Below the pieces are notes generated by a model. The model saw only the letters and a program-made list of their open reading frames with translations. It was not told the origin of the DNA and did not search any database. A DNA stretch of 34,062 nt from Cytophagales bacterium (GTDB lineage Bacteria > Bacteroidota > Bacteroidia > Cytophagales > UBA9547), in the NCBI GenBank assembly GCA_014376535.1, contig JACMRH010000089.1, forward strand, positions 1 through 34,062, read 5' to 3'. This document shows positions 1,897 through 34,062 of this stretch, piece by piece. How positions within the stretch are numbered: position 1 is the stretch's first letter; each line of letters opens with the position of its first letter. Both the position numbers and the translations under genes were made by a program.

Positions 1897-3537
1897 ATGA
1901 AATCAACTTTTACAAATTTGTGTCTGGTATTTAGCCTGTTCATATGCAATACATTAAACGCGCAAAAAATAGAGGCTGAAAGCGGTGTTTTGGACGGCGG
2001 TGCCGTTGTTGTTACAAATGCTTCAAGTTCAGGAGGGAAGTATGTTACAACCAATGCAGGTAATATTACTATTTCTACATCAACTGCAACTACAGGTTTT
2101 TACAATGTATATATTTATGTTGCAGCACCCTATGGCGACAAACAGAACAATTTTATTTTAGATGGCAATTCTGCTGTGTTTGCTACACCGCTTAACACAA
2201 ACTATATCAGATTAAAAGTAATTAGCTCACAAAAGGTTAATGCTGGGTCTCATACAATAAAAATAACCAATTCCTGGGGATACATAAATGTGGATTACAT
2301 TGAATTTGAAGCAGTTGATGCGTCCAGCAGGTTCAATGTTAATAAAACACTTGTTACTCCAAATCCAACCAAAGAAGCTGCTTGCCTTTATCAATTTTTA
2401 TATGATAACTATGGCAAAAAAATTCTTTCCGGCGTCATGACTTTAAATAGTTTTGATGAATCAAACTTTCTGAAACAAAATACAGGAAAAGAACCTGTTG
2501 TATTGGGGATTGACTTTTTACATACAAACAGAAAATATACATGGTACAATGACCAAACTCCAGTAGATGATGCAAAAGCATGGTCTGCCAAGAATGGTAT
2601 CCCTGTTTTCTGCTGGCATTGGAGAGATCCGTCAAGAGCAACGGAATCTTTTTATACCCAAAAAGGGAATGCAACCACTTATACAACTTTTGATATCAAG
2701 AAAATCAACGATCCAGCGTCCACAGAATACAAGGCAATGTTAAGCGATATTGATTACACAGCAACCCTTCTAAAAAGTCTTCAAACTGCCAACATCCCGG
2801 TGATTTGGAGGCCATTACATGAAGCAGCAGGTGGATGGTTTTGGTGGGGTGCTGATGGGGCTTCCTGCAAAAAACTTTATCAGATCATGTATGACAGAAT
2901 GGTTAATTTTCATGGGCTCAAAAACCTGATATGGGTTTGGACCAGGGAACCAAATGACGAAGCCTTTTACCCGGGTGATGCCTATGTAGACATAGTTGGA
3001 AGAGACATTTACAAAGATGGTGACCACGGTTCACAGGTTATTGAATTTAATAATCTTAATACTTTATATGGAGGCAAAAAGATGATCACGATCAGCGAAT
3101 CTGGTTCTTTTCCTGATGTAACAAACCTGATTAATGATGGAGCAGGTTGGTCATGGTGGATGCCCTGGTATGGTGGATACACTGAATCAGCCACGTATAA
3201 TTCACTTGATTTGTGGAAAAAAATGTTTGCCAGTGATTATGTAATTACACTTGATGAGATGCCTAATTATAAGAACTGTACTTTGGTTTCAGGAATAGAA
3301 GAAGAAGTATCAGAATCTAAGGGATTAAAAATATACTTCTCAGAAGCTACAGGGAATGTAATAGTTAACAGTCCAGAGGTAATTGGCCAGTTAACAATAT
3401 TTAATACTTTAGGAGAAATTGTGATTCAAAAATCTGTTAATTCGACAAATATAGAAGTTCCGGCACTTAACTTGAAATCAGGTATATACTTAGTAAAAGC
3501 TGATAACAAAAATCCGGTAAAGATTTTTAAACAATAG
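1897..3537 (+). CDS. GH26 family beta-mannanase-like protein with N-terminal CBM (CBM35/CBM6-like) and type A T9SS sorting domain
   Basis: Signal peptide; 'EAESGVLDGG...' CBM; GH26 motifs RPLHEAAGGWFWWG (acid/base Glu) and ITISESG (nucleophile Glu); C-terminal LTIFNTLGEIV...LNLKSGIYLVKADNK is typical of T9SS type A. Confidence 0.9.
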   Translation: MKSTFTNLCLVFSLFICNTLNAQKIEAESGVLDGGAVVVTNASSSGGKYVTTNAGNITISTSTATTGFYNVYIYVAAPYGDKQNNFILDGNSAVFATPLNTNYIRLKVISSQKVNAGSHTIKITNSWGYINVDYIEFEAVDASSRFNVNKTLVTPNPTKEAACLYQFLYDNYGKKILSGVMTLNSFDESNFLKQNTGKEPVVLGIDFLHTNRKYTWYNDQTPVDDAKAWSAKNGIPVFCWHWRDPSRATESFYTQKGNATTYTTFDIKKINDPASTEYKAMLSDIDYTATLLKSLQTANIPVIWRPLHEAAGGWFWWGADGASCKKLYQIMYDRMVNFHGLKNLIWVWTREPNDEAFYPGDAYVDIVGRDIYKDGDHGSQVIEFNNLNTLYGGKKMITISESGSFPDVTNLINDGAGWSWWMPWYGGYTESATYNSLDLWKKMFASDYVITLDEMPNYKNCTLVSGIEEEVSESKGLKIYFSEATGNVIVNSPEVIGQLTIFNTLGEIVIQKSVNSTNIEVPALNLKSGIYLVKADNKNPVKIFKQ

Positions 3538-4411: not shown

Positions 4412-7375
4412 TTAAAAATTTCTTTTCAGGTCAGGAAATACAGAAGTAGAAGAAAAATTAGTTGTTTTCTGATCCACGATAGCCTCATAAGCAGCATCAT
4501 GAATTTTAGTTCTGATATTTTGCAACACAAGCTTCTTATTTTCAGCTGTGGGAAAGGTTCTGTTTGAAAGAAATATGTAAATCAATTGTTTCTCAGGATC
4601 GGCCCAAAAGCATGTACCAGTAAATCCAGTATGTCCAAAAGTTGAATGAGAAGCATAAAAAGATGTAGGTCCGTTTTTTTCCATGGAAGGTTTATCCCAG
4701 CCTAAGCCCCTTCTGTTGTAGAAATAATGCGCCCTGGTAAATTCCTGGATCGTTTCTTTCTTGAAATAACGGATTCCATTGTATTCTCCACCATTCAGTA
4801 ACATCTGTATGATGATAGCCAGGTCGTTTGCATTTGAAAACAAACCTGCGTGTCCACCAATACCTCCTAACATCGCAGCTCCCTGGTCATGAACAGTTCC
4901 CCGAATTTCCTGGAACCTGAAATAATTATCCATTTCTGTTGGAGCTATTTGGGAAGCTGGAATTCTGTCTAATGGCCTAAATCCTAAGTATTTAACATCA
5001 AGTGGCTTGTAAAACTTCTGGTTAAGGAAATCATTAATAGGCACATTTAGAATTCTTTCGCAAATGGCTTTCATGATGTAAAAACCGAGATCGCTGTATA
5101 CATACCCATAACATTCCTGACCATCCTTTTTCATCAAGGTATTTGACTGAATGGTCCATTTCCACATTGAATCAGCAAGGGCCAAATCAGCATACATTGA
5201 GGGAGTTACGGGAAGACAATAGCTACCGTATTTTTCATTACAATAAACATTATCTTTTGGCATTTTAATATTAAGAGTACGTTTCCAATGTTCGATAAAC
5301 GCAATTAAACCAGCCTGATGACTCAATACTTCCTGCACATTCAGGTTTTCCTTATTGGTTCCGATAAATTCAGGTAAATAAACACTCACCGTACTATCTA
5401 AAGAAATTTTGCCTGTTTCATACAAGTGCATCACTGCCAGGGTCGTCGCAGCGACTTTTGTTATTGATGCCAGGTCATAAACCGTATTTTCATTTACTGA
5501 ATCTTTCCCTTCGTAATTTAAATATCCAAAGGTTTTGTTATAAACGATTGTTCCGTTTTTTGCCAGTAAGATCTGGCACCCTGGCATGGCTTTGTCCTTG
5601 ATAGCGGCCAAGGCTATAGTATCAATTTTACTAAGTTTATAAGTGCTCATTCCAACACTTTCAGGAATAGAATATTTAAAGATGTCGTTTCTGGCTGTGG
5701 TATCTCCCAAACCTTCTTTGATTGTGGCAGAGGCACTTACCGGCAGTTTTCCAGTAGCCTGAATTGCGCCAAAAATAATCTGGGGGATAATCTTTTTGGT
5801 AGTAAAATTATCTTCGTATCCACATATGAGGTAATCTACTTTTTCAAAGTTTTTAAGGCTATATGCATTCCCAGAAATGGAAACTACAACTTTGGTTTTC
5901 CTTGATAAACGATTGACCATTTCAAGTGCGCCGGCAGGTATATTGTAATTTTTGCTTCTCTGATTATTCATCTCATGAAAACTGATTACAACAACCTTGA
6001 ATTTGCTTAGCGAATCGCCCAATTTGGTGTAATTGAAATCAGACATCTCCTTTCTTGGAACTGAATAATTTCTAAATGCTGCATACTTATTAAGCGTGGA
6101 TTGCACTATATTATCCTTATCCAAACCGATTGTTACAGATGCGAAGGACAAAGAATCTTTTCTTTTTATTGGTATAAAATTGTTTTTGTTTTTTACAACT
6201 GTAAAAGCCTTCTCATAAAGCTTTACTCTCAAAGCCTGAGCATCAGCATTATTCAAATCCTGAAAAAGGCTATCCGTTTTAATGACTTGAGGTGAAGTTA
6301 GCTTAAGCCAATACTTTGTTGTCAGTATTTTTTTTACGGTTTTGTCTATTTCCTTTTGAAAACTTTTCTTTTTAGCAGCCTCCTTAATTAGCTCAATAGC
6401 TTTTGGAACATTTTCAGAAAACAACAAAACATCATTTCCAGCCTGCAAAGCTTTTAAGTCTACTTCTCCAGGTTTATTGAATTTGCTAACACCTTTCATA
6501 TTCAGTGCGTCAGTAAAAATAATCCCGGTAAAAATCATTTTATCTTTAAGCAAATCAGTCACTACTTCGGGCGACAAAGTGGTAGCGCGGTTTGGAGTAT
6601 TATCATAAGCAGGTATGTGCATGTGGGCAACCATCACACTACCTACACTGTCTTTAAACAATCTTTTAAAAGGATATAAATCAATACTTTCGATTCTTTT
6701 CTTGTCATTATTAACTACAGGTAAGGTTAGATGTGAATCTGAATCAGTATCGCCATGGCCAGGAAAATGTTTTGCACAGGCAAGCACTTTTCCATCCTGC
6801 AGACCCTTCATGTAGGCAACACCCTTATCAGCCACTTTCTCTTTGTCTTCACCAAATGAACGGTTGCCAATGACAGGATTGTCCGGGTTGCTGTTAACAT
6901 CTACAACAGGCGAAAAACTAACATGAACCCCAAGTCTACGGCATTGATATGCAATCTCCCTTCCCATTTGATAAATCAAAGTATTATCTGCCAGGGCACC
7001 TAAAGTCATTTGTTTGGGAAAACTAACGGTACTGTCCAGCCTCATTCCCAAACCCCATTCAGCATCCATTCCTATCCAAAGAGGGATTTTAGAGAGGGCC
7101 TGATATCGGTTTGTTAACCTTGCCTGTCTTAATGGTCCACCCTGGAAAAATATTAATCCACCAAGGTTATATTTCACAATTAAAGAATCTATCTGAGCAT
7201 AATGTTCTTCCGTTTTATTGGAATATGCGGCAACCATAAATAACTGGCCAAGCCTTTGATCGGCTGTCATGGATTCGAAAACGCTATCAACCCATTGTTT
7301 TTGAGAAAGTTGGGTTTGGGCTAAAGAGTTTATTGAAAGCAAAAAGGCTATGATAAGCCCGGAATACTTATTCAA
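4412..7375 (-). CDS. GH3 (NagZ-like beta-N-acetylglucosaminidase) fused to a serine hydrolase / class C beta-lactamase-like domain
   Basis: GH3 motifs KHFPGHGDTDSDSH and IFTDALNMKGV in the N-terminal half; the C-terminal half has SxxK (SITK in DLASITKVAAT), YSDLG and HTGFTG. Confidence 0.93.
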   Translation of the reverse strand: MNKYSGLIIAFLLSINSLAQTQLSQKQWVDSVFESMTADQRLGQLFMVAAYSNKTEEHYAQIDSLIVKYNLGGLIFFQGGPLRQARLTNRYQALSKIPLWIGMDAEWGLGMRLDSTVSFPKQMTLGALADNTLIYQMGREIAYQCRRLGVHVSFSPVVDVNSNPDNPVIGNRSFGEDKEKVADKGVAYMKGLQDGKVLACAKHFPGHGDTDSDSHLTLPVVNNDKKRIESIDLYPFKRLFKDSVGSVMVAHMHIPAYDNTPNRATTLSPEVVTDLLKDKMIFTGIIFTDALNMKGVSKFNKPGEVDLKALQAGNDVLLFSENVPKAIELIKEAAKKKSFQKEIDKTVKKILTTKYWLKLTSPQVIKTDSLFQDLNNADAQALRVKLYEKAFTVVKNKNNFIPIKRKDSLSFASVTIGLDKDNIVQSTLNKYAAFRNYSVPRKEMSDFNYTKLGDSLSKFKVVVISFHEMNNQRSKNYNIPAGALEMVNRLSRKTKVVVSISGNAYSLKNFEKVDYLICGYEDNFTTKKIIPQIIFGAIQATGKLPVSASATIKEGLGDTTARNDIFKYSIPESVGMSTYKLSKIDTIALAAIKDKAMPGCQILLAKNGTIVYNKTFGYLNYEGKDSVNENTVYDLASITKVAATTLAVMHLYETGKISLDSTVSVYLPEFIGTNKENLNVQEVLSHQAGLIAFIEHWKRTLNIKMPKDNVYCNEKYGSYCLPVTPSMYADLALADSMWKWTIQSNTLMKKDGQECYGYVYSDLGFYIMKAICERILNVPINDFLNQKFYKPLDVKYLGFRPLDRIPASQIAPTEMDNYFRFQEIRGTVHDQGAAMLGGIGGHAGLFSNANDLAIIIQMLLNGGEYNGIRYFKKETIQEFTRAHYFYNRRGLGWDKPSMEKNGPTSFYASHSTFGHTGFTGTCFWADPEKQLIYIFLSNRTFPTAENKKLVLQNIRTKIHDAAYEAIVDQKTTNFSSTSVFPDLKRNF

Positions 7376-18702: not shown

Positions 18703-21291
18703 TTAAATTGTCCATTCAAATTTGAATAATGCTCCATGTCCTGGCTCTGATTCGACCCAAATGCGTCCATTATTTTTTTCAATCAGGGATTTTGTAGTAT
18801 GGAGCCCAATGCCGGTACTGTTATTTTCTTTTCCGGTATCGTACAAGTTAAAAATTCGCTGATGGTATTCTTTTGAAATCCCATAACCGTTATCTTTCAC
18901 AAAAAACTGTATAAAAGTGTCATGCATTTCAGAGATCCCTATTTCAATCTCACATATACCCTCCTTATTACAGCCATAGCGGATAGCATTGCTTATTAAA
19001 TTTGAAAACACTTGTTGTAGTGTATTTTTATTGGTTTGAATCACTGGCATATTCTTTTCTAATGAATATTTAATCCTGCTTTTATCCGGATTTAACCATT
19101 TGAAAACATCTTCTAAAAGAATATTTAAATCAACCTCAGATAATTCAATTCGATGTTGTTTTGCCTGAGACAATAAGCTTGAGATAAATAAATCCATCTT
19201 TGAAATAGACTCCCTGATCAAACTAAAGACTTCAGTATTTTCCTCATGTTTAACAAAATCTGTATTTTCTTCCAAAACATTGATTAATCCCTCAATGCCT
19301 TTAATTGGTGCTTTTAAATCGTGAGCAACTAAATTAGTGTAGTCATCCAGCTGTTCATTTATACTTGCTAATACGTTAGATTTTTCTTTCATTTTGGTAA
19401 CATCCGTACCAATGATTATATACTTATACTTTTGTTTGTCGATATTTTTCACTCTGGATACATTGAAATTAAGGTAAGTACCTTTATCTTCTCTGTGTAG
19501 CAAAATATCAGTTTTAAAGGCACTTCTTTTTACATTACCTTTAGATTTTGAGTCAGTCACAATTATAATGTTTTCAGACGATTTCAAGATCTCAGCAAAG
19601 GTTTTACCAGTAACATCTTTTAGTTGCATTCCTGAATAATCGGAAAAGGACTGATTTACCCATTCCACTCGCCCGTGCTGGTTCAATGTGAGAACTGCAT
19701 TTCCTGTTCTTTGAGCAATGATAGATAATTTGTAAACTTCTTCTTCTGCAATTATCCGTTTTAGGATTTGGGATCGCAGTATTATTTCTAGAATGGATTT
19801 AAGCAGGTTGTGGGCTATTTCTATTTCTATATTAGTCCATTTAAGACTGTTGTGCCGTTTTTTTTCTATATAAAGGCCAAATGAATTTCTAGGATGTAAT
19901 GCCGCCAGGTCATTTGGAAGGCCACTGGCGTAACCTGGATCTCCCGCCCATTTGATGGTTTGGACGTATTCTTTTCTAAATCCGATAATATAATATTTAT
20001 GATCTCCGGAGAGGGGCAGAAAGATCACGCCACTTGCCAAGTTTGAATACTCTTGTGCTGGCGGGAATATATTAGCTAATTCGTGAGAGAAAAAAAATTG
20101 CTGGGGATGAGCATTTTTATACCATTCCATCATCTCCTCCACAAATTTCTTTGGAGGTGTAGCACCTATACGATTATAAGTGTTTTCGTACAATATAACC
20201 GCTCCTGTTAGATTCAGCAATTGTAGAATGTTTACTTTTCCATCTGATAAGCCTGAAACAAAATCGCCTGTATAAGACATAAATCTTGTCATTTCCCCCA
20301 ATTTGTCAAAAAGTTCTATTCGTTTTGTCAGCAAATAATGGCTTTCCCGCGTAGTGACCAATTCTGAGATAAGATTAGATAACAATCCAAACACCGTTCT
20401 TAATTCATAAGATAAATGCTTAGGTGTATTGTGATGACATGCGATTATTCCCCAAAGCTGTTGATCTTTAACAATTGGCACTGACATAGATGCTTGTACA
20501 CCCATTTTTTTCAAATATTCTAAATGGACACTGGCGACACTTCTCAGATTGCAATCGGATAAGTCAGTAATGCCATTAATTGATTTGTTTATAGGAGGTA
20601 TAAGCTGCTGATCTTTATCATTGATATCCGGTATCATGCGATAAGGATTTTTCAAGTAAAGTTGTCTTGCTTGCCTGGGAATATCTGAAGAAGGGAAATG
20701 AAAGCCTAAATACTCCTGTTTCCCGTTTACAGAAGCTTCACCCAGAACCTGGCCATTCCAGTCTTCATCAAACCGATAAATCATTACCCTGTCAAAAGAG
20801 GACAATGACATTAGATTTTCTGCTGCCTTTTGACAGATCTCTTCCATTGACCCTGCTACCTTTAAGACGGCAGAGAAATATTCTATCTCCTGGTAAAGTT
20901 TTGTGAATGATAGGGTATTATCATTGTTACTTTCTTCAAGTTCAAAGAGAACATATTTATCCTTAATATGCAGAGTGGCCCTAAATCGGGTAAAATGTTG
21001 TTTTAAAACAATATCAAGATCAATCGAAATATGATCCTCTACATTTTTATTCTCAATTTTCTTTCTGACTTCTTCATACTGAGTGACTGATAAAAAATCT
21101 TTAAAATTCCGTCCCTCAAAGTCTGTATTTGTTAATTTTAAAAGCACCAGAAAGTTCTCAGACCATTGAAGGATTTTTAAATTATAATCGGTGACCAAAA
21201 GGTATCCATATCCTTGTATTAAATTAGTGAAGTTTAGAGGAATGTTTTCACAAACTTCAGAATCAAACTTCCCCTTAATGTCTATGTGCAT
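18703..21291 (-). CDS. bphP: Bacteriophytochrome histidine kinase (PAS-GAF-PHY-PAS-HisKA-HATPase)
   Basis: N-terminal Cys in SEVCENIPLNFTNLIQ; FPSSDIPRQARQLYLKNPYRMIPDI; LRSVASVHLEYLKKMGVQASMSVPI; WGIIACHHNTPKHLSY; PHY tongue motif WAGDP...HPRNSFGLYIE; H-box VAHDLKAPIKGI; NLISNAIRYG; DNGYGI; GIGL. Confidence 0.95.
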   Translation of the reverse strand: MHIDIKGKFDSEVCENIPLNFTNLIQGYGYLLVTDYNLKILQWSENFLVLLKLTNTDFEGRNFKDFLSVTQYEEVRKKIENKNVEDHISIDLDIVLKQHFTRFRATLHIKDKYVLFELEESNNDNTLSFTKLYQEIEYFSAVLKVAGSMEEICQKAAENLMSLSSFDRVMIYRFDEDWNGQVLGEASVNGKQEYLGFHFPSSDIPRQARQLYLKNPYRMIPDINDKDQQLIPPINKSINGITDLSDCNLRSVASVHLEYLKKMGVQASMSVPIVKDQQLWGIIACHHNTPKHLSYELRTVFGLLSNLISELVTTRESHYLLTKRIELFDKLGEMTRFMSYTGDFVSGLSDGKVNILQLLNLTGAVILYENTYNRIGATPPKKFVEEMMEWYKNAHPQQFFFSHELANIFPPAQEYSNLASGVIFLPLSGDHKYYIIGFRKEYVQTIKWAGDPGYASGLPNDLAALHPRNSFGLYIEKKRHNSLKWTNIEIEIAHNLLKSILEIILRSQILKRIIAEEEVYKLSIIAQRTGNAVLTLNQHGRVEWVNQSFSDYSGMQLKDVTGKTFAEILKSSENIIIVTDSKSKGNVKRSAFKTDILLHREDKGTYLNFNVSRVKNIDKQKYKYIIIGTDVTKMKEKSNVLASINEQLDDYTNLVAHDLKAPIKGIEGLINVLEENTDFVKHEENTEVFSLIRESISKMDLFISSLLSQAKQHRIELSEVDLNILLEDVFKWLNPDKSRIKYSLEKNMPVIQTNKNTLQQVFSNLISNAIRYGCNKEGICEIEIGISEMHDTFIQFFVKDNGYGISKEYHQRIFNLYDTGKENNSTGIGLHTTKSLIEKNNGRIWVESEPGHGALFKFEWTI

Positions 21292-22684: not shown

Positions 22685-25600
22685 TTATTTTTTAACTATT
22701 CTATGCACAATCGCACTAGATTGGGTTTTTACATGTACGAAATAAACTCCCGCATTATAATTATCGCCAAATTGACTAAAGTTTAAAGTTCCAAGATCAT
22801 CAATTAATACACCTTGCATATTATAGACCTGAACCTCAGATACATCTGGCAGTTGCAGATTGAACCCTTTTGTGGAAGGATTAGGATAAAGCAAGGTTGC
22901 ATGACTGAATACTTCTTCATTCAAACTAAGTACGGGTGGACATATACCTGCACTTATCCCTGCACTGACATAGTTTATCTGGTCGATATTGCTTAAACCT
23001 ACAGCAGTAGTTGATTTTAACTCCAGGACATTGTTTCCCTGCAAAAGTTGAACCTGAACATCTTTAGGTTCCCATTCTTCCCATGTACCAGTTGGCAAAA
23101 AATTGATGATAGCGGGGATAACAATTCCGTTTACAGTTAATTGAGCGGGCCTGTCGCCTGCTGAAGATCCGTTGGCATAAAGAAAACTGATGGCATAAGC
23201 ACCTGCAACCTGGGCAGTAACTGCAAATTTAACATAAGCACCTATAATATTTGGCCCATCCAAAAAGCCGGTTCCTTTGTAACCATCATGCGTGTCAAGA
23301 TTATCCCCGTCAAAACTACAGGCATCTTCTGCTTCAGTCATGGTAGTACAAGCTGTTTTACCAGTTAAACCGCCTACACATCTTTCACATTTGTCAAGAA
23401 GAGCCGTTCCATTTGCTGTACCGTTGCAATCTCTTGGGAAGTCTGCTACTACAATATCAATAACGGCTGAAGTGTCAGTTGCCCCACCGTTATCTGTTGC
23501 GACTGCTTTCAGTTCATAAGACCCTGCAACTACATTCGTCCAGATAAAACTATAAGTTGAAGTATTGTCTGTTCCAATAAGTGTCGATCCATTATAGAAA
23601 TCAACTTTCGTAATTGTTCCTCCTACATCAGAAGCCGTAGCATTTATTGTAATTGTGGCAGGTACCCCCAAAATAATTGCATCTTGAATGGGAGATGTAA
23701 TGCTTACAGAAGGCGGATTATTAACTGCTGTCACAATCACTTTTACAATTGCAGAAGTTGTGGACGTGGCATCGTCATCAAATGCTTTTGCAGAAAGGTT
23801 ATACGTCCCTCCGCCAACATTTGACCAGATAAAGCTGTAAGGGGCTGTATTGTCTGTACCAATCAGGGTTGCACCATTGTAATACTCCACTTTTGTTATA
23901 ATTCCATCTGCATCACCGGCTGTTGCGTTTATGCTAATAGAAGCAGGTGCGTTGTATGAGGCATTGTTTAATGGTGACGTAATGGAAATTGTTGGAGCAA
24001 TGTTAGCAGCCGTCACTCCCACAAGTTTAATTTTTGGTGCTGGTGGAGTTGCCATTCCATCACCCAAATAATAATCAACCATATTTCCCTGATAATATCC
24101 TTTGCAGGTCATATCGGCACGGTATTTAGGGTTATGTGCCATGGTGTAAATTCTTGTGCTACTGGCATACGGTGTTGTAAATACCCTGATTGCCCTGTTG
24201 TCGATCCGGGTGTAAATAGCTTCTTCACGCCAGTCGCCGACGAGGTCGGTCAATAAACCAGGAGTTTTAGGACCTACCTGATAAACTCCCTGCGCAGTGT
24301 ATTGTCTACCTTCTCCAGACGAAGCATAATTCCATTTATTGAATTTACCATTATCCAGGCACTCGCTCAAGACATCTCCATCCCACCAGATCCGCAAATT
24401 TGGATAAGAACCTGTAATGAAGTTTGATGTTTTGCCTCCAGCTACATTGTAAATCCCATCAGTGAAAGTAAAAAATTCATATCCTGGAAAACGGGGATCA
24501 AGGTCTCCTGCATACCCCCTTGCCAAATCAACAATGGGAACTGTTCCGTCAGGATTTTTTAAATATTGGCTGTGGATGATCTTGCCGTCTTTCGCATCGT
24601 AATACAGCCAGGCAAGGCCGCTTTCATTGTTTTGCTGAATTGCATAGCCTTCCAAACCTGGACGTTTTGGGTCCATATCAGCTATAAAGAAGCGGTCTCC
24701 ATGTACCACTCCCTGTGCATCCTGGCCCCAAAGTATTTTACCATTATCGTCCAAACAAAAACCAAAAGGGATCACTTCATCTTTTCCATCTCCGTCCACA
24801 TCGGCAATACGCATGTTGTGCCCGTCAGGTCCGCTGCCACTTCCCCTTTTGTACTTCCAGGTCAATACCATTGCTCCATTTACCCAGCTATAAGCAGACA
24901 CGTTCATATTAAATGATTTATCGCTATTTCTGTTTTTAGCTGACCATACCAAAGAAGGGTTTACTCCATCCAAATAGGCAATGCCAAACATGCCGTTCAA
25001 TTGTCCGACAGAGGCGAAATCATTTGCCAGCTGGCAACGGGAAATTTCATTTCCTGTTACTCCATTCAAAACTGAAACATATTGCACAGCGTTATTGGTA
25101 TTTGTTACAACTTTTCCATCAGGAAATTTAACACCATTCGCAGTTTTAAGCAGGACTTCAGCCTTGCCGTCGTTATTTATATCATAAACAGTTATTCCAT
25201 CTCCATGCCCAATATCAATGGCAGAAGAACCTGGTGTAATGTTGTAACGGTTCACAGAGTTTGGGCCGCAATCTACTCTCCACAAAAACTGGCCTTTGCT
25301 TGTAACAGCTTCTACTACAATAGGATCTGTAACTATAGAAGGTTGACGGTCATAAACAAAATCAAATTCACCATCACCATTCAAATCTCCTGTCCAGATG
25401 AACTTTACGGAATAATTGGGCAATTCCGGAATGGGCACATCATAAAATGGCTGTGTGGGAGTGTTCGCTGCTAATGTAAAAGATGCACTGGCGGCACTTT
25501 CTCTCCCGTTACTTACAGAAGTAACATAATAGGAGTTAGCGACGGTAAAATTGGCCGTTTTATCTTCAAAGTTTGTCCCAGCTGTCAATACATTAGCATT

Positions 25601-25876
25601 AAGTTTAACAGCAGAGGCTGCTACGGTTTTTCTGTAAAGGTTAAAACCAAGGGTATTGGGATCAGTTCCAAATAACCGCCAGCTTACAAGGGCAGTGTTG
25701 TTTGCCGTTTTAGTAGCAACAACTCCTCTGTTTAGATTTTCCATCCAGCGCTGAGCGTGAAGGGAGCCAATACTAAAGAAGCATATCAATGCTGCCAGGA
25801 AAGTTGCTTTGGCCAACCCGCAGCCGGTTAAAGTGTTTTTTGTAATTCCTGTTTTCATATTTAAATCCATTTTCAA
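22685..25876 (-). CDS. PL11-like rhamnogalacturonan lyase with two bacterial Ig-like domains, CBM35-like module and type A T9SS sorting domain
   Basis: RWMENLNRGVVATKTANNTALVSWRLFGTDPNTLGFNLYRK; DLNGDGEFDFVYDRQP; DLVGDWREEAIYTR; tandem PTISITSPLNNASY.../PSVSITSPIQDAII...; AEDACSFDGDNLDTHDGYKGTGFLD; C-terminal LLYPNPSTKGFNLQ...YNAGVYFVHVKTQ. The alternative start at 25858 is equally plausible. Confidence 0.92.
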   Translation of the reverse strand: MKMDLNMKTGITKNTLTGCGLAKATFLAALICFFSIGSLHAQRWMENLNRGVVATKTANNTALVSWRLFGTDPNTLGFNLYRKTVAASAVKLNANVLTAGTNFEDKTANFTVANSYYVTSVSNGRESAASASFTLAANTPTQPFYDVPIPELPNYSVKFIWTGDLNGDGEFDFVYDRQPSIVTDPIVVEAVTSKGQFLWRVDCGPNSVNRYNITPGSSAIDIGHGDGITVYDINNDGKAEVLLKTANGVKFPDGKVVTNTNNAVQYVSVLNGVTGNEISRCQLANDFASVGQLNGMFGIAYLDGVNPSLVWSAKNRNSDKSFNMNVSAYSWVNGAMVLTWKYKRGSGSGPDGHNMRIADVDGDGKDEVIPFGFCLDDNGKILWGQDAQGVVHGDRFFIADMDPKRPGLEGYAIQQNNESGLAWLYYDAKDGKIIHSQYLKNPDGTVPIVDLARGYAGDLDPRFPGYEFFTFTDGIYNVAGGKTSNFITGSYPNLRIWWDGDVLSECLDNGKFNKWNYASSGEGRQYTAQGVYQVGPKTPGLLTDLVGDWREEAIYTRIDNRAIRVFTTPYASSTRIYTMAHNPKYRADMTCKGYYQGNMVDYYLGDGMATPPAPKIKLVGVTAANIAPTISITSPLNNASYNAPASISINATAGDADGIITKVEYYNGATLIGTDNTAPYSFIWSNVGGGTYNLSAKAFDDDATSTTSAIVKVIVTAVNNPPSVSITSPIQDAIILGVPATITINATASDVGGTITKVDFYNGSTLIGTDNTSTYSFIWTNVVAGSYELKAVATDNGGATDTSAVIDIVVADFPRDCNGTANGTALLDKCERCVGGLTGKTACTTMTEAEDACSFDGDNLDTHDGYKGTGFLDGPNIIGAYVKFAVTAQVAGAYAISFLYANGSSAGDRPAQLTVNGIVIPAIINFLPTGTWEEWEPKDVQVQLLQGNNVLELKSTTAVGLSNIDQINYVSAGISAGICPPVLSLNEEVFSHATLLYPNPSTKGFNLQLPDVSEVQVYNMQGVLIDDLGTLNFSQFGDNYNAGVYFVHVKTQSSAIVHRIVKK

Positions 25877-26051
25877 GTTTTAAATGGGCTAAGATTGATG
25901 ATAGCCAAATTATGTAAACCCAGTACCCACAACAGAAACAGGATGTAACGGGATCTTTAAAAATTTTATTAGAAAAGTAAAAATTGAAATTAACGACCGA
26001 TTGAACCAAACAGAGATACCTGAAATCAGCTATATAGAACGCTTTTGAAAA

Positions 26052-26924
26052 TCAATGCAAAACATACCCCACCCCTAGCTCAATAGAATTCTGGAAAGCA
26101 GGGACCAATTTAAAAAAGGAAGAGTTATAATTAAATGTGATGTTAATCCGGTCCGTTTCAGAATCAAGAGAAAATTCAGTATACAATGAAATTCCGGAAT
26201 TGGAACGGTAAATAGAACCAATCCCAATACGTTCCCTATAAAATATAGAGCTTCCAACAAGAAACTCATCCGGGATCAATGGCAAAATCCTGTACAAACC
26301 ATAATACTTCCATTTCCAGTTTATATCAAGGTCCGATTCGTCGGAAATATGGACATGATAATACCGTTTTGCTTCAAGCTGCCCAGCATACGGCCTTGCT
26401 TTAGAATTCAATAATTGCAAGCCTGCAAACCCAAACTGCAACCTGTTCCATTTCAGCACACTACCAGCTGAAGCATCAGGAAGAAAAAAATTGATATTTC
26501 CTGCCGCAGAAACACCCGTGTAGTGCATACTTATAAAACCACCTGCAACTCCAACAGCGAGTTTTACAGTCTCCCCAAGTGGCACCTCTAATGCATAGTT
26601 GGCATATCCTCTGGGACTTGAAATATATGGCCCTTGCTTTTCATTGGAAGCAGTTAAACGAATGGAATGGACTGAATTATTTTTCTGAGTATAAAGTTTC
26701 GCTGCTGAACATGTCAAAGTAGCAACTTCAGTAAATTCACCTGTTTGAAATTTGTAGTAGGCAGTAAGGTCAGTTTTGGCGTTGTCTGGTAGATAAGCTG
26801 CATTTACCATGTACATATTTACATCATATCTTGAATAAAGGTCTGGACTAATCACATTGGTAAGCTGGCACCAGCCAGGGCGCAGAAAAAAAACAAAAAA
26901 GATGATGAATAATATTCTTGACAA
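26052..26924 (-). CDS. PorP/SprF family type IX secretion-associated outer-membrane protein
   Basis: Signal peptide ending PGWCQ; SPDLYSRYDVNMYMVNAAYLP at the N-terminus; beta-strand-rich sequence ending IELGVGYVLH. Confidence 0.75.
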   Translation of the reverse strand: MSRILFIIFFVFFLRPGWCQLTNVISPDLYSRYDVNMYMVNAAYLPDNAKTDLTAYYKFQTGEFTEVATLTCSAAKLYTQKNNSVHSIRLTASNEKQGPYISSPRGYANYALEVPLGETVKLAVGVAGGFISMHYTGVSAAGNINFFLPDASAGSVLKWNRLQFGFAGLQLLNSKARPYAGQLEAKRYYHVHISDESDLDINWKWKYYGLYRILPLIPDEFLVGSSIFYRERIGIGSIYRSNSGISLYTEFSLDSETDRINITFNYNSSFFKLVPAFQNSIELGVGYVLH

Positions 26925-27045
26925 GCTTAGACCAAATTTTTATATCAAATTTATATTTTAAACTTTATTCCGTTACAAATAACTTAACCGCTGGGTATTG
27001 GAACTAAACGTTGGAATTTGGGCAATGACAGCAAATAAATTTTGA

Positions 27046-27621
27046 GTGAAGGTAACAGAAAATAATATCGCTGAACTAATAAGAAATGGAAATGATAAAG
27101 AGGCGATTCAGTGCTTGTATAAAAATGTACTGCCCAACTTTAAAAGATTTGTAAAAAACAATAATGGTCCAGCTGAAGATGCCTTTGACATATTTCAGGA
27201 TGCCTTAATCGCTTTTTACCAAAGTGTGATAAATGGAAAGTTCGATCCGCAATACAAGGTTTATGGTTACGTCTACAAACTTTGTATTTACAGGTGGATA
27301 AATAAAATGACCCGGGAAAAGCTACAGTTCAAAGACGAACTTCCAGACATACAAATGGAAACACCAGTATATTGGTTCTCAGAAAATAGTATAAAAGACG
27401 AACAAGTTTTGCTAAAGGAACTTTTCTCTTCGATTGGTGAAAAATGTTTAGAGCTGTTGAATTATACTATTTTTAAAGAAATTCAGATGGAAGATATCAT
27501 GTTGCGGATGAATTTTCCGTCCGAAACTTCTGTAAGGATGCAGAATATGCGCTGTAAAGAAAAACTGGTACTGGAAATAGAACGCAATCCCGGATTGCTA
27601 TCCAAACTGAGAAAATTATGA
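27046..27621 (+). CDS. RNA polymerase sigma-70 family (ECF) sigma factor
   Basis: GTG start; EDAFDIFQDALIAFYQSVINGKFDPQYKVYGYVYKLCIYRWINKMTRE is a sigma region 2 pattern; C-terminal region 4-like segment. Confidence 0.85.
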   Translation: MKVTENNIAELIRNGNDKEAIQCLYKNVLPNFKRFVKNNNGPAEDAFDIFQDALIAFYQSVINGKFDPQYKVYGYVYKLCIYRWINKMTREKLQFKDELPDIQMETPVYWFSENSIKDEQVLLKELFSSIGEKCLELLNYTIFKEIQMEDIMLRMNFPSETSVRMQNMRCKEKLVLEIERNPGLLSKLRKL

Positions 27622-28706
27622 ACGAGAAAGACCTTAATATAAAGATTGAAAGCTATCTCAATAGGAATATGCCCGACGATGAGATAATTGGTTTTGAGTC
27701 AGAAATCTCTCAAAACCAAACGCTTGCGGATAAGGTTGAGACATTTCGCCTTGCAAATCTGGCATTGACCAGAAATAAATTGTGGGTAGTAAAAAATATT
27801 TCCAATGCTATAAACGACGAACACATAAAAGCTTCTAAAATTAAGAAAACGGTTCTTATTCTTTCGGCTCTCACACTTTTGGGAATCGGAATCGCATCTG
27901 CAATTTTAATTAAAGAAGAAAAACCAAATGAAATTATAAAAAGCAATTCGAAAATATCGAAGGTTGAAACTACCAAAACTGAAAACAAGCAAGCTATAAC
28001 ACAAAACCTTCAAACAAAAAAGACAAACAAACCAGCTAGAAAAGAACTTCAAAATTTAGTACGTCCTACTAAAATAAAGGAAAACAATATTGTATATACT
28101 CCTGCTGAAGTAGAAAATAAAACTGTGGTGCCGCAAAAAACAGCTGACATTAGTAAATCTATGATTCCGGCATATAAGCAAAAACCTGAAGATTCCCGAC
28201 CTGATAACATATGCAGGACCATTTCTATTGATGCCTTTATTTCTGCCGAAAAAGCATGCTTTAATGAACAAAATGGAAGAATTTCAGTCTCCGGTTTTAA
28301 AGGAGGATCAGAACCATACATATATAAAGTTCTCGACCAGGCGAAACAAAATATTTCCTCAACCAAACTTGCAGCGGGAATTTATTCTGTAATCATAACT
28401 GACAGCCGCAATTGTCAGAAATTAATTGAAGGTATTATTATAAAGGAAGAAAACTGTAAAAGGGATCTGGAACTGAATGCTTCAAACGGAGACGAAGTAG
28501 AATTCGGAACCGCAGATCAGGAAGTTTCATTTACGGTTTATGACAAAGGGGGAAATATATATTTTGATGGACAGTTTGCCTCCGGAGAAAAAATTAAATG
28601 GAACGGCATTTCCGCAAAAGGGGAAATTAAAAGTGGCTATTTTATCTTTACTTTGAAATACCAGGATGGAAAAATTCATAAAGGATCAATCACTGTGATT
28701 AAATAA
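27618..28706 (+). CDS. Single-TM putative anti-sigma factor with SprB-repeat-like and type-B T9SS (CHU_C-like) C-terminal region
   Basis: ATGA overlap with the sigma gene; short N-terminal soluble domain; TM VLILSALTLLGIGIASAILI; Lys/Thr-rich linker; CFNEQNGRISVSGFKGGSEPYIYKV...TKLAAGIYSVIITDSRNCQKLIEGIIIKEE (SprB-like); VSFTVYDKGGNIYFDG...SGYFIFTLKYQDGKIHKGSITVIK (CHU_C-like). Confidence 0.75.
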   Translation: MNEKDLNIKIESYLNRNMPDDEIIGFESEISQNQTLADKVETFRLANLALTRNKLWVVKNISNAINDEHIKASKIKKTVLILSALTLLGIGIASAILIKEEKPNEIIKSNSKISKVETTKTENKQAITQNLQTKKTNKPARKELQNLVRPTKIKENNIVYTPAEVENKTVVPQKTADISKSMIPAYKQKPEDSRPDNICRTISIDAFISAEKACFNEQNGRISVSGFKGGSEPYIYKVLDQAKQNISSTKLAAGIYSVIITDSRNCQKLIEGIIIKEENCKRDLELNASNGDEVEFGTADQEVSFTVYDKGGNIYFDGQFASGEKIKWNGISAKGEIKSGYFIFTLKYQDGKIHKGSITVIK

Positions 28707-28713
28707 TGACCTT

Positions 28714-30345
28714 ATGAAACTCATACATTTACTTAAAAATAGTTGGAGAGAACAAATGGTCTTGTTCAATTTAATAGTTTGCTCCACCCTTTCTTACGGA
28801 CAAACTGTTTCTTTGCCAGACACCAATTTCCGTAATTTTCTAAAAAAAAATTATCCAGTTCTGATAGATTTTAATGGTGACTTAATTATTGCTGAAGCAG
28901 GAAAAGTAACGGGTGAAATAATCGGCTACAGCCAGAAAATTTCTAGTTTGGAGGGTATCCAATTCTTCACTAAAATTCAGGGCCTGAACTTTTCAAAGAA
29001 TAATTTAAAGTCAATACCTGATATCAATGCTATGAAAAATCTGGAAGTGCTAAATATTTCGAACAATAAGCTCGAAAACCTTCCATCACTCTCAGGCTTA
29101 AAAAAGATTAAAGCACTTATTGTACCTGTTAACTTTTTACAAAGGCTCCCCGATTTATCTTTAAATGATTCTTTGGTTAGATTAGACCTTCATTCTAACC
29201 TCATTGACACACTAACAGATCTTAGTAAACTTGTTCGTCTGGACTACCTGAATATTTTGAATAACCAGGTACGGTACATACCCGGCCTTGATAAATTGGT
29301 TTTGCTCGATACTCTTATTATCTGGAGGAATAATTTGCTAAAACTACCATCACTTGAAAATATAAATAAACTGGCGAAACTGGATGCTTCACAAAACAAG
29401 CTTGACAAGGTTCCAGATTTTGGCTCAGAACCTGCTGTCCAAATACTTCTACTGGATAGAAATAACCTCAGCACATTACCCGACTTTTCTATTTATAAAA
29501 AGCTTTCAAAAGTAAATATTTATGGCAATAAGCTAAGTTTCAAAGAACTGACTAAATTAACTTTCAAGGCAGGTTATGACACACTTTTCGATATCTCACC
29601 TCAGCAAACATTTCTGGTAGGAAAGAAACTGCAATCAATAGAAGGTGAAAAAACTATATTAAGCACAGGCATAGACCAGAATACTGCAGGTGTTACGTAT
29701 GAATGGTTTAAAAACGGGTTCTCATTCAGTACAGTTACCAATGACAGTCTTAAAATTATTAACACTTCTTTTCAGGATTCAGGAAAATATATCTGTGTAA
29801 TAAAACATCCTTCGTTCCCAAATTTTGCATTACAAACAGACACTTTTGTCGTTTCTGTAAAATCATGTGTGGATGTGCAGTCATTATCAACCTCAGTAAC
29901 TGATATAATCTGCAAAAAGGCCGGAAGCTTGTTTGTTATGGCCCCTTCAAAGAATAAATATACTTATGAATTAAAAAGCCCTGTTACACAAAAAATCTTT
30001 ACATCAACTACAGGCCGTTTCGATGGCTTGACAGAACCTGTTTATAAGTTAAGTGTCAAAACCTCGACAGGATGTAGCAAGGCCTATCCTGTTGATATAA
30101 AAATTCCTGGATCCAGTTGCAAAGATTACCTCATAACACCTGACAACGATGGCAACATGGATACCTTCTTTTTTGAGGCAAGCGGAAAAGTAGAAATCTT
30201 CGACAAAAGAGGAAACATGGTCAAAAGATTAAGCATTCCTTCAGAGTGGGATTGTTCTTCTGACAAAGGAAAAGTGGCTAGCGGTTATTATATCGCCAAT
30301 ATCAACGATGGAGAATCTCAAATAGGCTTGAGTATTGTTTATTAA
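28714..30345 (+). CDS. Secreted leucine-rich-repeat protein with Ig-like domain and type-B T9SS (CHU_C-like) C-terminal domain
   Basis: Signal peptide; about 8-10 LRRs (e.g. LEVLNISNNKLENLPSLSGLKKI); Ig-like GVTYEWFKNGFSF...DSGKYICVI; C-terminal YLITPDNDGNMDTFFFEASGKVEIFDKRGNMVKRL...SGYYIANINDGESQIGLSIVY. Confidence 0.85.
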   Translation: MKLIHLLKNSWREQMVLFNLIVCSTLSYGQTVSLPDTNFRNFLKKNYPVLIDFNGDLIIAEAGKVTGEIIGYSQKISSLEGIQFFTKIQGLNFSKNNLKSIPDINAMKNLEVLNISNNKLENLPSLSGLKKIKALIVPVNFLQRLPDLSLNDSLVRLDLHSNLIDTLTDLSKLVRLDYLNILNNQVRYIPGLDKLVLLDTLIIWRNNLLKLPSLENINKLAKLDASQNKLDKVPDFGSEPAVQILLLDRNNLSTLPDFSIYKKLSKVNIYGNKLSFKELTKLTFKAGYDTLFDISPQQTFLVGKKLQSIEGEKTILSTGIDQNTAGVTYEWFKNGFSFSTVTNDSLKIINTSFQDSGKYICVIKHPSFPNFALQTDTFVVSVKSCVDVQSLSTSVTDIICKKAGSLFVMAPSKNKYTYELKSPVTQKIFTSTTGRFDGLTEPVYKLSVKTSTGCSKAYPVDIKIPGSSCKDYLITPDNDGNMDTFFFEASGKVEIFDKRGNMVKRLSIPSEWDCSSDKGKVASGYYIANINDGESQIGLSIVY

Positions 30346-33292: not shown

Positions 33293-34062
33293 TTACTTAG
33301 AATTTTTAGCTGCTGAAGCTTCAGTTGACAACAGTTTTTTTATCTCTGAAATTTCATATTGTAAAGTCTGGATTGATTTAAGTTCTTCCTTTTGTATTGC
33401 ATTTTCAGCTTTTAATACATCTATCTGTGCCTTCAGTTCTTTTACAGAATTTATAAGCATATAGGTCAAAGAAGAACCATCGTATTTCAAAAGAGTAGTT
33501 TCTGATTTATCATTTTGATCAAGCTTCATTGAAAATGTCTCAACCGTATAAGGTGCTACTTTTTTAATTTCTTGCGCTATAACTCCAATATATTCTGATG
33601 TAGTGTCTTTATATGGTCCTTTGCCATTGTACTTAAATTTTACGGGATGTATCTGAAGCAGTGCAGATAATCCATCATTATAATCTAGAATGTCCTTCTT
33701 TAGGCGCTTGTCAGAAAAAGTTCCCCAAGTACCTCCTCCAGCCTTGTCTGCAGTTCCGTTTACACTCAAAAGTGAAGTAGGTGCTGTAGTATTTATTCCA
33801 ACGTTACCAGATGATTTTAAAATACTTACCGCTTCCATTACACCAGTATTGGCAGCATTAGGAACATATATTGCCGCTCTGACACTGGAAAGCGCATCAT
33901 CAACTCCACCAAAACCTGCATAAGTATTTGCTGCCATTCCTGACCATGGTCTTATTTTATATCCAAGAATTTTCCCTGCACCACCGGTGCTTTCCAGCAA
34001 AACATACGGTGCAGTACCATTATAAATATGCAATCTTTCTGTAGGTGTGGCAGTTCCAATAC
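33293..34062 (-). CDS. Tail-fibre-like protein with C-terminal S74 intramolecular chaperone (chaperone of endosialidase) domain; 5' end outside the window
   Basis: FSDKRLKKDILDYNDGLSALLQIHPVKFKYNGKG...SEYIGVIAQEIKKVAPYTV; C-terminal coiled coil. The frame stays open to the window edge (IGTATPTERLHIYNG...). Confidence 0.88.
   Translation of the reverse strand, partial: IGTATPTERLHIYNGTAPYVLLESTGGAGKILGYKIRPWSGMAANTYAGFGGVDDALSSVRAAIYVPNAANTGVMEAVSILKSSGNVGINTTAPTSLLSVNGTADKAGGGTWGTFSDKRLKKDILDYNDGLSALLQIHPVKFKYNGKGPYKDTTSEYIGVIAQEIKKVAPYTVETFSMKLDQNDKSETTLLKYDGSSLTYMLINSVKELKAQIDVLKAENAIQKEELKSIQTLQYEISEIKKLLSTEASAAKNSK

Follow-up and report, generated by a model that had tools for sequence, protein, structure and literature searches.

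Why should a gene for an outer-membrane protein linked to the type IX secretion system (T9SS) stand next to the operon of an extracytoplasmic function (ECF) sigma factor? The question is raised by a 34,062-nucleotide contig of a Cytophagales bacterium (JACMRH010000089.1; the window), in which a PorP/SprF family gene is separated by a divergent gap of 121 bp from genes for the sigma factor, an anti-sigma factor, and, 7 nt further downstream, a leucine-rich repeat (LRR) and immunoglobulin-like (Ig) surface protein. A preliminary description of this DNA had reported the four-gene arrangement, and every coordinate, overlap, and gap is confirmed. The signalling route that it proposed, from the LRR protein through the anti-sigma factor to the ECF factor, agrees in part with our analysis: the arrangement is conserved in other genomes, a putatively sigma-binding helical domain precedes the membrane segment of the anti-sigma factor, and a promoter-like element common to the sigma operon and a secreted lyase supports the idea that the signal controls this locus or further genes for surface proteins. 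It missed, however, the C-terminal domain (CTD)-like tail of the anti-sigma factor, and it described as one locus what is in fact a multi-copy one.

We propose that these genes form a T9SS-linked cell-surface signalling module, in which PorP would hold the surface receptor, the tail of the anti-sigma factor, or both. The sigma factor would activate its own operon and adjacent secreted enzymes. We consider this reading somewhat probable; the contact between PorP and the tail and the direction of the signal are what we infer. The module probably turns on secreted plant-polymer-degrading enzymes once the surface receptor senses something.

The CTD-like tail of the anti-sigma factor

The AlphaFold2 (AF2) model of the anti-sigma factor consists of helices at residues 3-100, including the transmembrane (TM) segment, followed by about 100 disordered residues, up to about residue 195, and two confident Ig-like domains at residues 205-275 and 282-361. 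Taken alone, the window protein shows weak SprB-repeat-like and CHU_C-like stretches in its last 160 residues (CHU_C, 17.2 vs. 27 bits). Among the 58 sequences of the anti-sigma set, CHU_C is matched in 40 at E-values up to 0.01 (best 1.8e-9), SprB in 30, TIGR04131 in 23, and an anti-sigma profile in nine. The identity of the tail is solid, because ten paralogues from the same genome and 58 sequences in all support the weak single-protein matches. A profile of the ten paralogues matched GhpA (PDB 9flp), a giant T9SS-type protein of Aureispira, over the last 70 residues (1e-27), and a profile-profile comparison with hhalign aligned residues 194-361 of the anti-sigma factor with residues 380-542 of the adjacent LRR protein (E-value 1.3e-19). 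By the latter alignment, the two-domain tail is a homologue of the cassette of SprB-like Ig domain and type-B T9SS CTD with which its neighbour ends.

The LRR and Ig domains of the neighbouring protein are clear by profile, and its CTD scores are sub-threshold (CHU_C, 20.2 vs. 27 bits; TIGR04131, 15.7 vs. 35 bits); substrates of sister modules exceed the CHU_C cut-off, with 31-36 bits. Its AF2 model has a hydrophobic N-terminal helix, the LRR and Ig parts, and then the same two-domain end as the anti-sigma factor. In some copies of the module another CTD protein without recognised LRRs takes its place.

FlgD_ig is matched in 31 of the 58 anti-sigma sequences, and a Foldseek search with the anti-sigma model against PDB and viral models returned mostly generic Ig matches. 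Both would fit a generic periplasmic Ig tail of FlgD-like fold making no contact with PorP, in which case PorP and the CTD protein would merely be co-regulated, and the anti-sigma factor would sense something else in the periplasm; the missing PNGDG-type motif and the unspecific mirror-tree result discussed below point the same way. Yet the matches to the GhpA C-terminus and to the neighbouring substrate cassette are far stronger, and the tail occurs with PorP, whereas tail-less relatives are found without it. We rate a generic tail as unlikely.

Co-occurrence of PorP/SprF with tailed anti-sigma factors

The association was examined in 119 loci of the window sigma family, duplicates removed, of which 59 were scored as tailed and 60 as tail-less with CTD profiles built from the module family, which a very diverged tail could escape. 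A PorP/SprF gene lies within 3.5 kb at 56 of the 59 tailed loci and at none of the 60 tail-less ones (Fisher test, 8e-31); it is divergent in 52 cases and co-directional in four. Two of the three tailed loci without PorP are on contigs with just 343 and 1,715 bp upstream of sigma. The association shows that the two genes have stayed closely linked in many copies that have otherwise diverged, and the CTD-like tail gives a physical rationale for the presence of PorP at the locus. A separate type-B CTD protein is encoded within 5 kb in 48 of the 59 tailed loci. A sequence search of PDB found no solved PorP relative.

Promoter-like element and predicted targets

The shared pattern CCGTTAC-N17-GGTAYTGG has only two exact sites in the 4.68-Mb genome, one before the sigma operon and one before the lyase gene, which lies on the far side of PorP from this operon. 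The two elements have an identical spacer and a nearly equal distance to the annotated start. Across modules, GTTAC with a GTA-like triplet after a spacer of 15-19 bases occurs upstream of sigma in 19 of 50 cases (vs. 1.7 in shuffles); GTTAC by itself occurs in 26 (vs. 5.3 in shuffles). This suggests autoregulation. The GTTAC-type element also precedes 44 of 62 tail-less sigmas and thus characterises the sigma family as a whole.

Since the exact pattern was composed after both sites had been viewed, sharing of the element was tested across modules generally. In a set of 28 modules that includes two near-duplicates, the own flank fits the cognate sigma element better than the flanks of other modules do (permutation p = 5e-5). 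A dinucleotide-shuffle test with the duplicate removed gave p < 0.05 for ten of 27 modules, p = 0.001 for the window, and a combined p of 1.8e-9. These comparisons support, without proving, module-specific control of flanking genes by the sigma factor. With two mismatches allowed, eight sites were found genome-wide vs. nine for a reversed-pattern control, and the regulon claim is therefore limited to the two exact sites. The genes flanking the modules often code for secreted enzymes with type-A CTDs, which comprise polysaccharide lyase PL11 in the window and, elsewhere, glycoside hydrolases (GH) GH26, GH5, GH43 (twice), GH8, and GH9, and pectate lyases. A type-A CTD gene is near six of nine evaluable modules of the host genome (rough p = 0.002, assuming at least 150 type-A genes in 4.68 Mb on the basis of the best 150 candidates, the background being a lower bound). 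Beside another module, a 1467-aa LRR protein (L112:3-4403) carries the element of that module almost exactly (AGGTTAC..TGTGTAATGC) and is predicted to be another sigma target.

The position of a substrate gene within the sigma operon, adjoining sigma's own element, could also be explained by supply-and-demand control of export instead of ligand sensing. The tail would then monitor free PorP, being released or captured as PorP is filled or empty, and expression of the substrate operon would be matched to shuttle capacity. The tail and the substrate CTD, being homologous, could compete, and type-B shuttles are scarce relative to an overproduced substrate (PMC12618676). However, some of the targets predicted in the flanks are enzymes with a type-A CTD, which do not use PorP/SprF-type shuttles, the PorP gene carries no matching element, and a surface LRR or other variable substrate domain fits sensing better. 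We think such export control improbable on balance, though deserving of somewhat more weight than the generic tail.

Recurrence and distribution

The host genome, a 551-contig assembly of 4.68 Mb, has about ten copies of the module (C422, the window contig; C128; C77, twice; C23; C118; C116; C152; C383; and C550), and the relative G002 has at least 12. Contigs were scanned with the sigma factor, the more conserved query, the alignment of all ten anti-sigma paralogues being too diverged. Because of the recurrence in its own genome and the presence in others, the four-gene arrangement is not due to chance. Named matches are from uncultured Cytophagales, Sporocytophaga, one Cytophagaceae metagenome-assembled genome (MAG), and one unplaced Bacteroidota MAG; by these matches the module appears mostly confined to one order, Cytophagales. 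Outside the order it is rare, with one full-length match in some 95 further genomes from this class, counted among the best 20 candidates per genome. The module bearers include a complete genome of 4,433,218 bp, in which a GH9 cellulase is encoded next to the copy at about 0.88 Mb.

The T9SS translocon SprA is present in the genome. Two long SprA-like open frames were seen in G000 (C339:4-5313 and C451:2-4258, the latter with one internal stop codon); in this assembly, with a contamination of 5.55%, either the translocon is present twice or one of the frames is foreign.

Features of the locus and neighbouring genes

The coordinates are collected in Table 1. The PorP/SprF product (290 aa) scores 86.2 bits against PF11751, with a curated cut-off of 22.3, and thus belongs to the family. 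The sigma factor scores below the profile cut-offs (TIGR02937, 32 vs. 42.9 bits; Sigma70_r2, 18 vs. 24 bits), and its assignment to a well-supported family is based on the paralogues.

Table 1. Coordinates in the window of the module genes, their domains, and associated elements
Feature	Position	Strand	Basis
Rhamnogalacturonan lyase (PL11), type-A CTD, predicted sigma target	22685..25876	-	PF21348 (1.9e-73), Por_Secre_tail, shared promoter-like element
Promoter-like element CCGTTAC-N17-GGTACTGG, upstream of lyase gene	25920..25951	-	Exact site
PorP/SprF family outer-membrane protein	26052..26924	-	PF11751 (3.6e-24, above cut-off); TIGR03519 (1.1e-15, sub-threshold)
Promoter-like element CCGTTAC-N17-GGTATTGG, upstream of sigma operon	26970..27001	+	Exact site
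ECF sigma factor, GTG start	27046..27621	+	TIGR02937 (8e-8); at least nine paralogues in genome, aligned
Anti-sigma factor, whole gene including CTD-like tail	27618..28706	+	ATGA overlap with sigma gene
Cytoplasmic helical domain, putative sigma-binding, aa 1-76	27618..27845	+	AF2 helices; N-terminal part common to tail-less anti-sigmas
Single TM segment, aa ~80-98, N-terminus inside by charge	27855..27911	+	Hydropathy, flanking charge
Disordered tether, aa ~101-203	27918..28226	+	AF2 pLDDT ~50 over most of stretch
SprB-repeat-like Ig domain, aa 204-275	28227..28442	+	SprB in 30/58 relatives; AF2
Type-B CTD-like domain without PNGDG-type motif, aa 282-362	28461..28703	+	CHU_C in 40/58 relatives; own-genome profile
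LRR-Ig surface protein, signal-peptide-like start, type-B CTD	28714..30345	+	LRR/Ig profiles, AF2, family alignments
Type-B CTD of LRR protein, aa 471-543	30124..30342	+	Sub-threshold CHU_C; hhalign to anti-sigma tail

Elsewhere in the window, 1897-3537 (+) encodes a GH26 enzyme with a carbohydrate-binding module (CBM35) and a type-A T9SS CTD, a further secreted polysaccharide-degrading enzyme; 4412-7375 (-) a 987-aa protein with a GH3 beta-glucosidase fused to a beta-lactamase-family domain; 18703-21291 (-) a bacteriophytochrome-type histidine kinase (PAS_2-GAF-PHY-PAS-HATPase); and 33293-34060 (-), cut by the window end, the C-terminal portion of a Peptidase_S74-domain (endosialidase chaperone) protein.

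Proposed mechanism

It is established for other systems that PorP/SprF shuttles serve in the export and anchoring of their cognate type-B CTD proteins (PMC9143113, PMC12618676). As in other such pairs, PorP would export and anchor the LRR protein via its type-B CTD. The CTD-like tail of the anti-sigma factor would engage this PorP, or the complex concerned, at the outer membrane, either by docking there or by competing for it. In the docked state the tether would thus connect the outer membrane with the sigma factor. A shift in the ligand state of the receptor or in the occupancy of PorP would displace or pull the tail, and the anti-sigma factor would be inactivated, probably by regulated proteolysis. 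The freed sigma factor would then transcribe its own operon and neighbouring genes for secreted, often polysaccharide-degrading, enzymes. In this view the module copies would work as separate circuits of receptor and sigma factor, each using a distinct promoter variant.

Several observations weigh against this scheme. None of the 59 anti-sigma tails has the PNGDG-type motif with which the CTD begins in 32 of 47 partner proteins. Secretion or recognition by the shuttle required each of the conserved type-B motifs examined in PMC12618676, and the tail may therefore not bind PorP in the usual way. The tailed loci form essentially a single sigma clade, and thus the Fisher value does not count independent events, and the co-occurrence does not represent many separate gains. 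One tailed locus with ample flanks, L149 (G027:C9), is a clear exception, with no PorP or type-B partner nearby; it is possibly an orphan using a distant PorP. In 11 modules no separate type-B substrate was found within 5 kb, some of these being at contig ends and the rest unexplained. Mirror-tree partial correlation of PorP was as high with the anti-sigma N-terminus (0.31) as with the tail (0.30) and is thus not specific for the tail, and similarity of cognate CTDs reached just p = 0.03; both are positive, and we rejected them as proof of PorP-tail contact for lack of specificity. Finally, sigma-type elements on the PorP strand are at background, with none facing PorP.

The complete absence of the motif also bears on whether the anti-sigma factor itself is a T9SS client, its tail being exported through SprA and lodged in PorP from outside, so that a Dma-like trans-envelope protein would result and export or pulling would be the signal. 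A CTD-like end, a tether long enough to span the periplasm, and the precedent of Dma anti-sigma factors reaching the outer membrane (PMC13088901) would suit such a client. All 59 tails lacking the motif favour instead a periplasm-facing mimic over an exported protein, and no cleavable signal peptide is expected, since the cytoplasmic domain precedes the TM segment. We consider export of the tail quite improbable, and prefer the signalling module with a tail held on the periplasmic side.

Relation to known systems and implications

The closest working analogues are the Dma factors and FecIRA, and the module has the defining features of neither. Dma factors (PMC13088901), a multi-member family in Bacteroidota, likewise combine a sigma-binding domain (putative here), a single TM segment, a long disordered tether, and a C-terminal part acting at the outer membrane, and the window anti-sigma factor has the helical N-terminal domain, single TM segment, and long disordered tether of this family. 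However, the C-terminal part of a Dma factor is its own beta-barrel, whereas the window protein ends in Ig and CTD-like domains, the barrel is encoded by the separate PorP/SprF gene, and a surface CTD protein is present in the operon. It was thus rejected as a Dma member, having no beta-barrel in the same chain and two Ig-like domains in the AF2 model. In the same genome (G000; L062:6402-8606, contig C327), a 523-aa protein directly downstream of an ECF-like sigma factor looks like a Dma-type anti-sigma factor, with a sub-threshold match to the outer-membrane beta-barrel family PF13568.

In FecI/FecR/FecA (PMC9249621), an outer-membrane barrel, an inner-membrane anti-sigma factor, and an ECF sigma factor are also encoded together and control a surface locus, but the module is without a TonB-dependent transducer, an N-terminal signalling domain of the barrel, and a FecR domain. 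The only barrel gene at the locus is that of PorP_SprF, and FecR was matched in none of the 58 anti-sigma members, which were rejected as FecR proteins. PorP/SprF pairs with type-B CTD substrates (PMC9143113, PMC12618676) show the same linkage of a PorP-like gene to a surface-protein gene; the module differs in that an ECF sigma operon incorporates the pair and a homologous CTD-like tail is present on the anti-sigma factor. The PorA-PorXY-SigP system of Porphyromonas gingivalis (PMC7712824) likewise has a T9SS-linked ECF sigma factor under the influence of a surface protein with a CTD, but it acts via a two-component system, controls T9SS machinery genes, and has neither a CTD-tailed anti-sigma factor nor a PorP-linked operon of this kind. 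No prior description of the module was found in the open literature searched for ECF/anti-sigma factors with PorP/T9SS.

The analysis yields a concrete predicted promoter. If the proposed mechanism is true, T9SS shuttle proteins, so far viewed as exporters and anchors, would become part of a signalling pathway, and the Dma idea would come to include a design divided between two proteins. The mechanism would also point to a way in which gliding bacteria that degrade polysaccharides and rely little on SusC/D could sense fibres at the cell surface. More tentatively, and somewhat short of an even chance in our view, the modules may represent a general outer-membrane-to-sigma system assembled from T9SS parts, with PorP/SprF as transducers, exchangeable CTD proteins (LRR or other) as ligand-binding subunits, and the anti-sigma factor as a captive CTD mimic, giving about five to at least 12 parallel promoter-specific circuits in some Cytophagales that control T9SS-secreted polysaccharide-degrading enzymes. 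Such a system would fill the role that SusC/FecIR-type systems have in Bacteroides.

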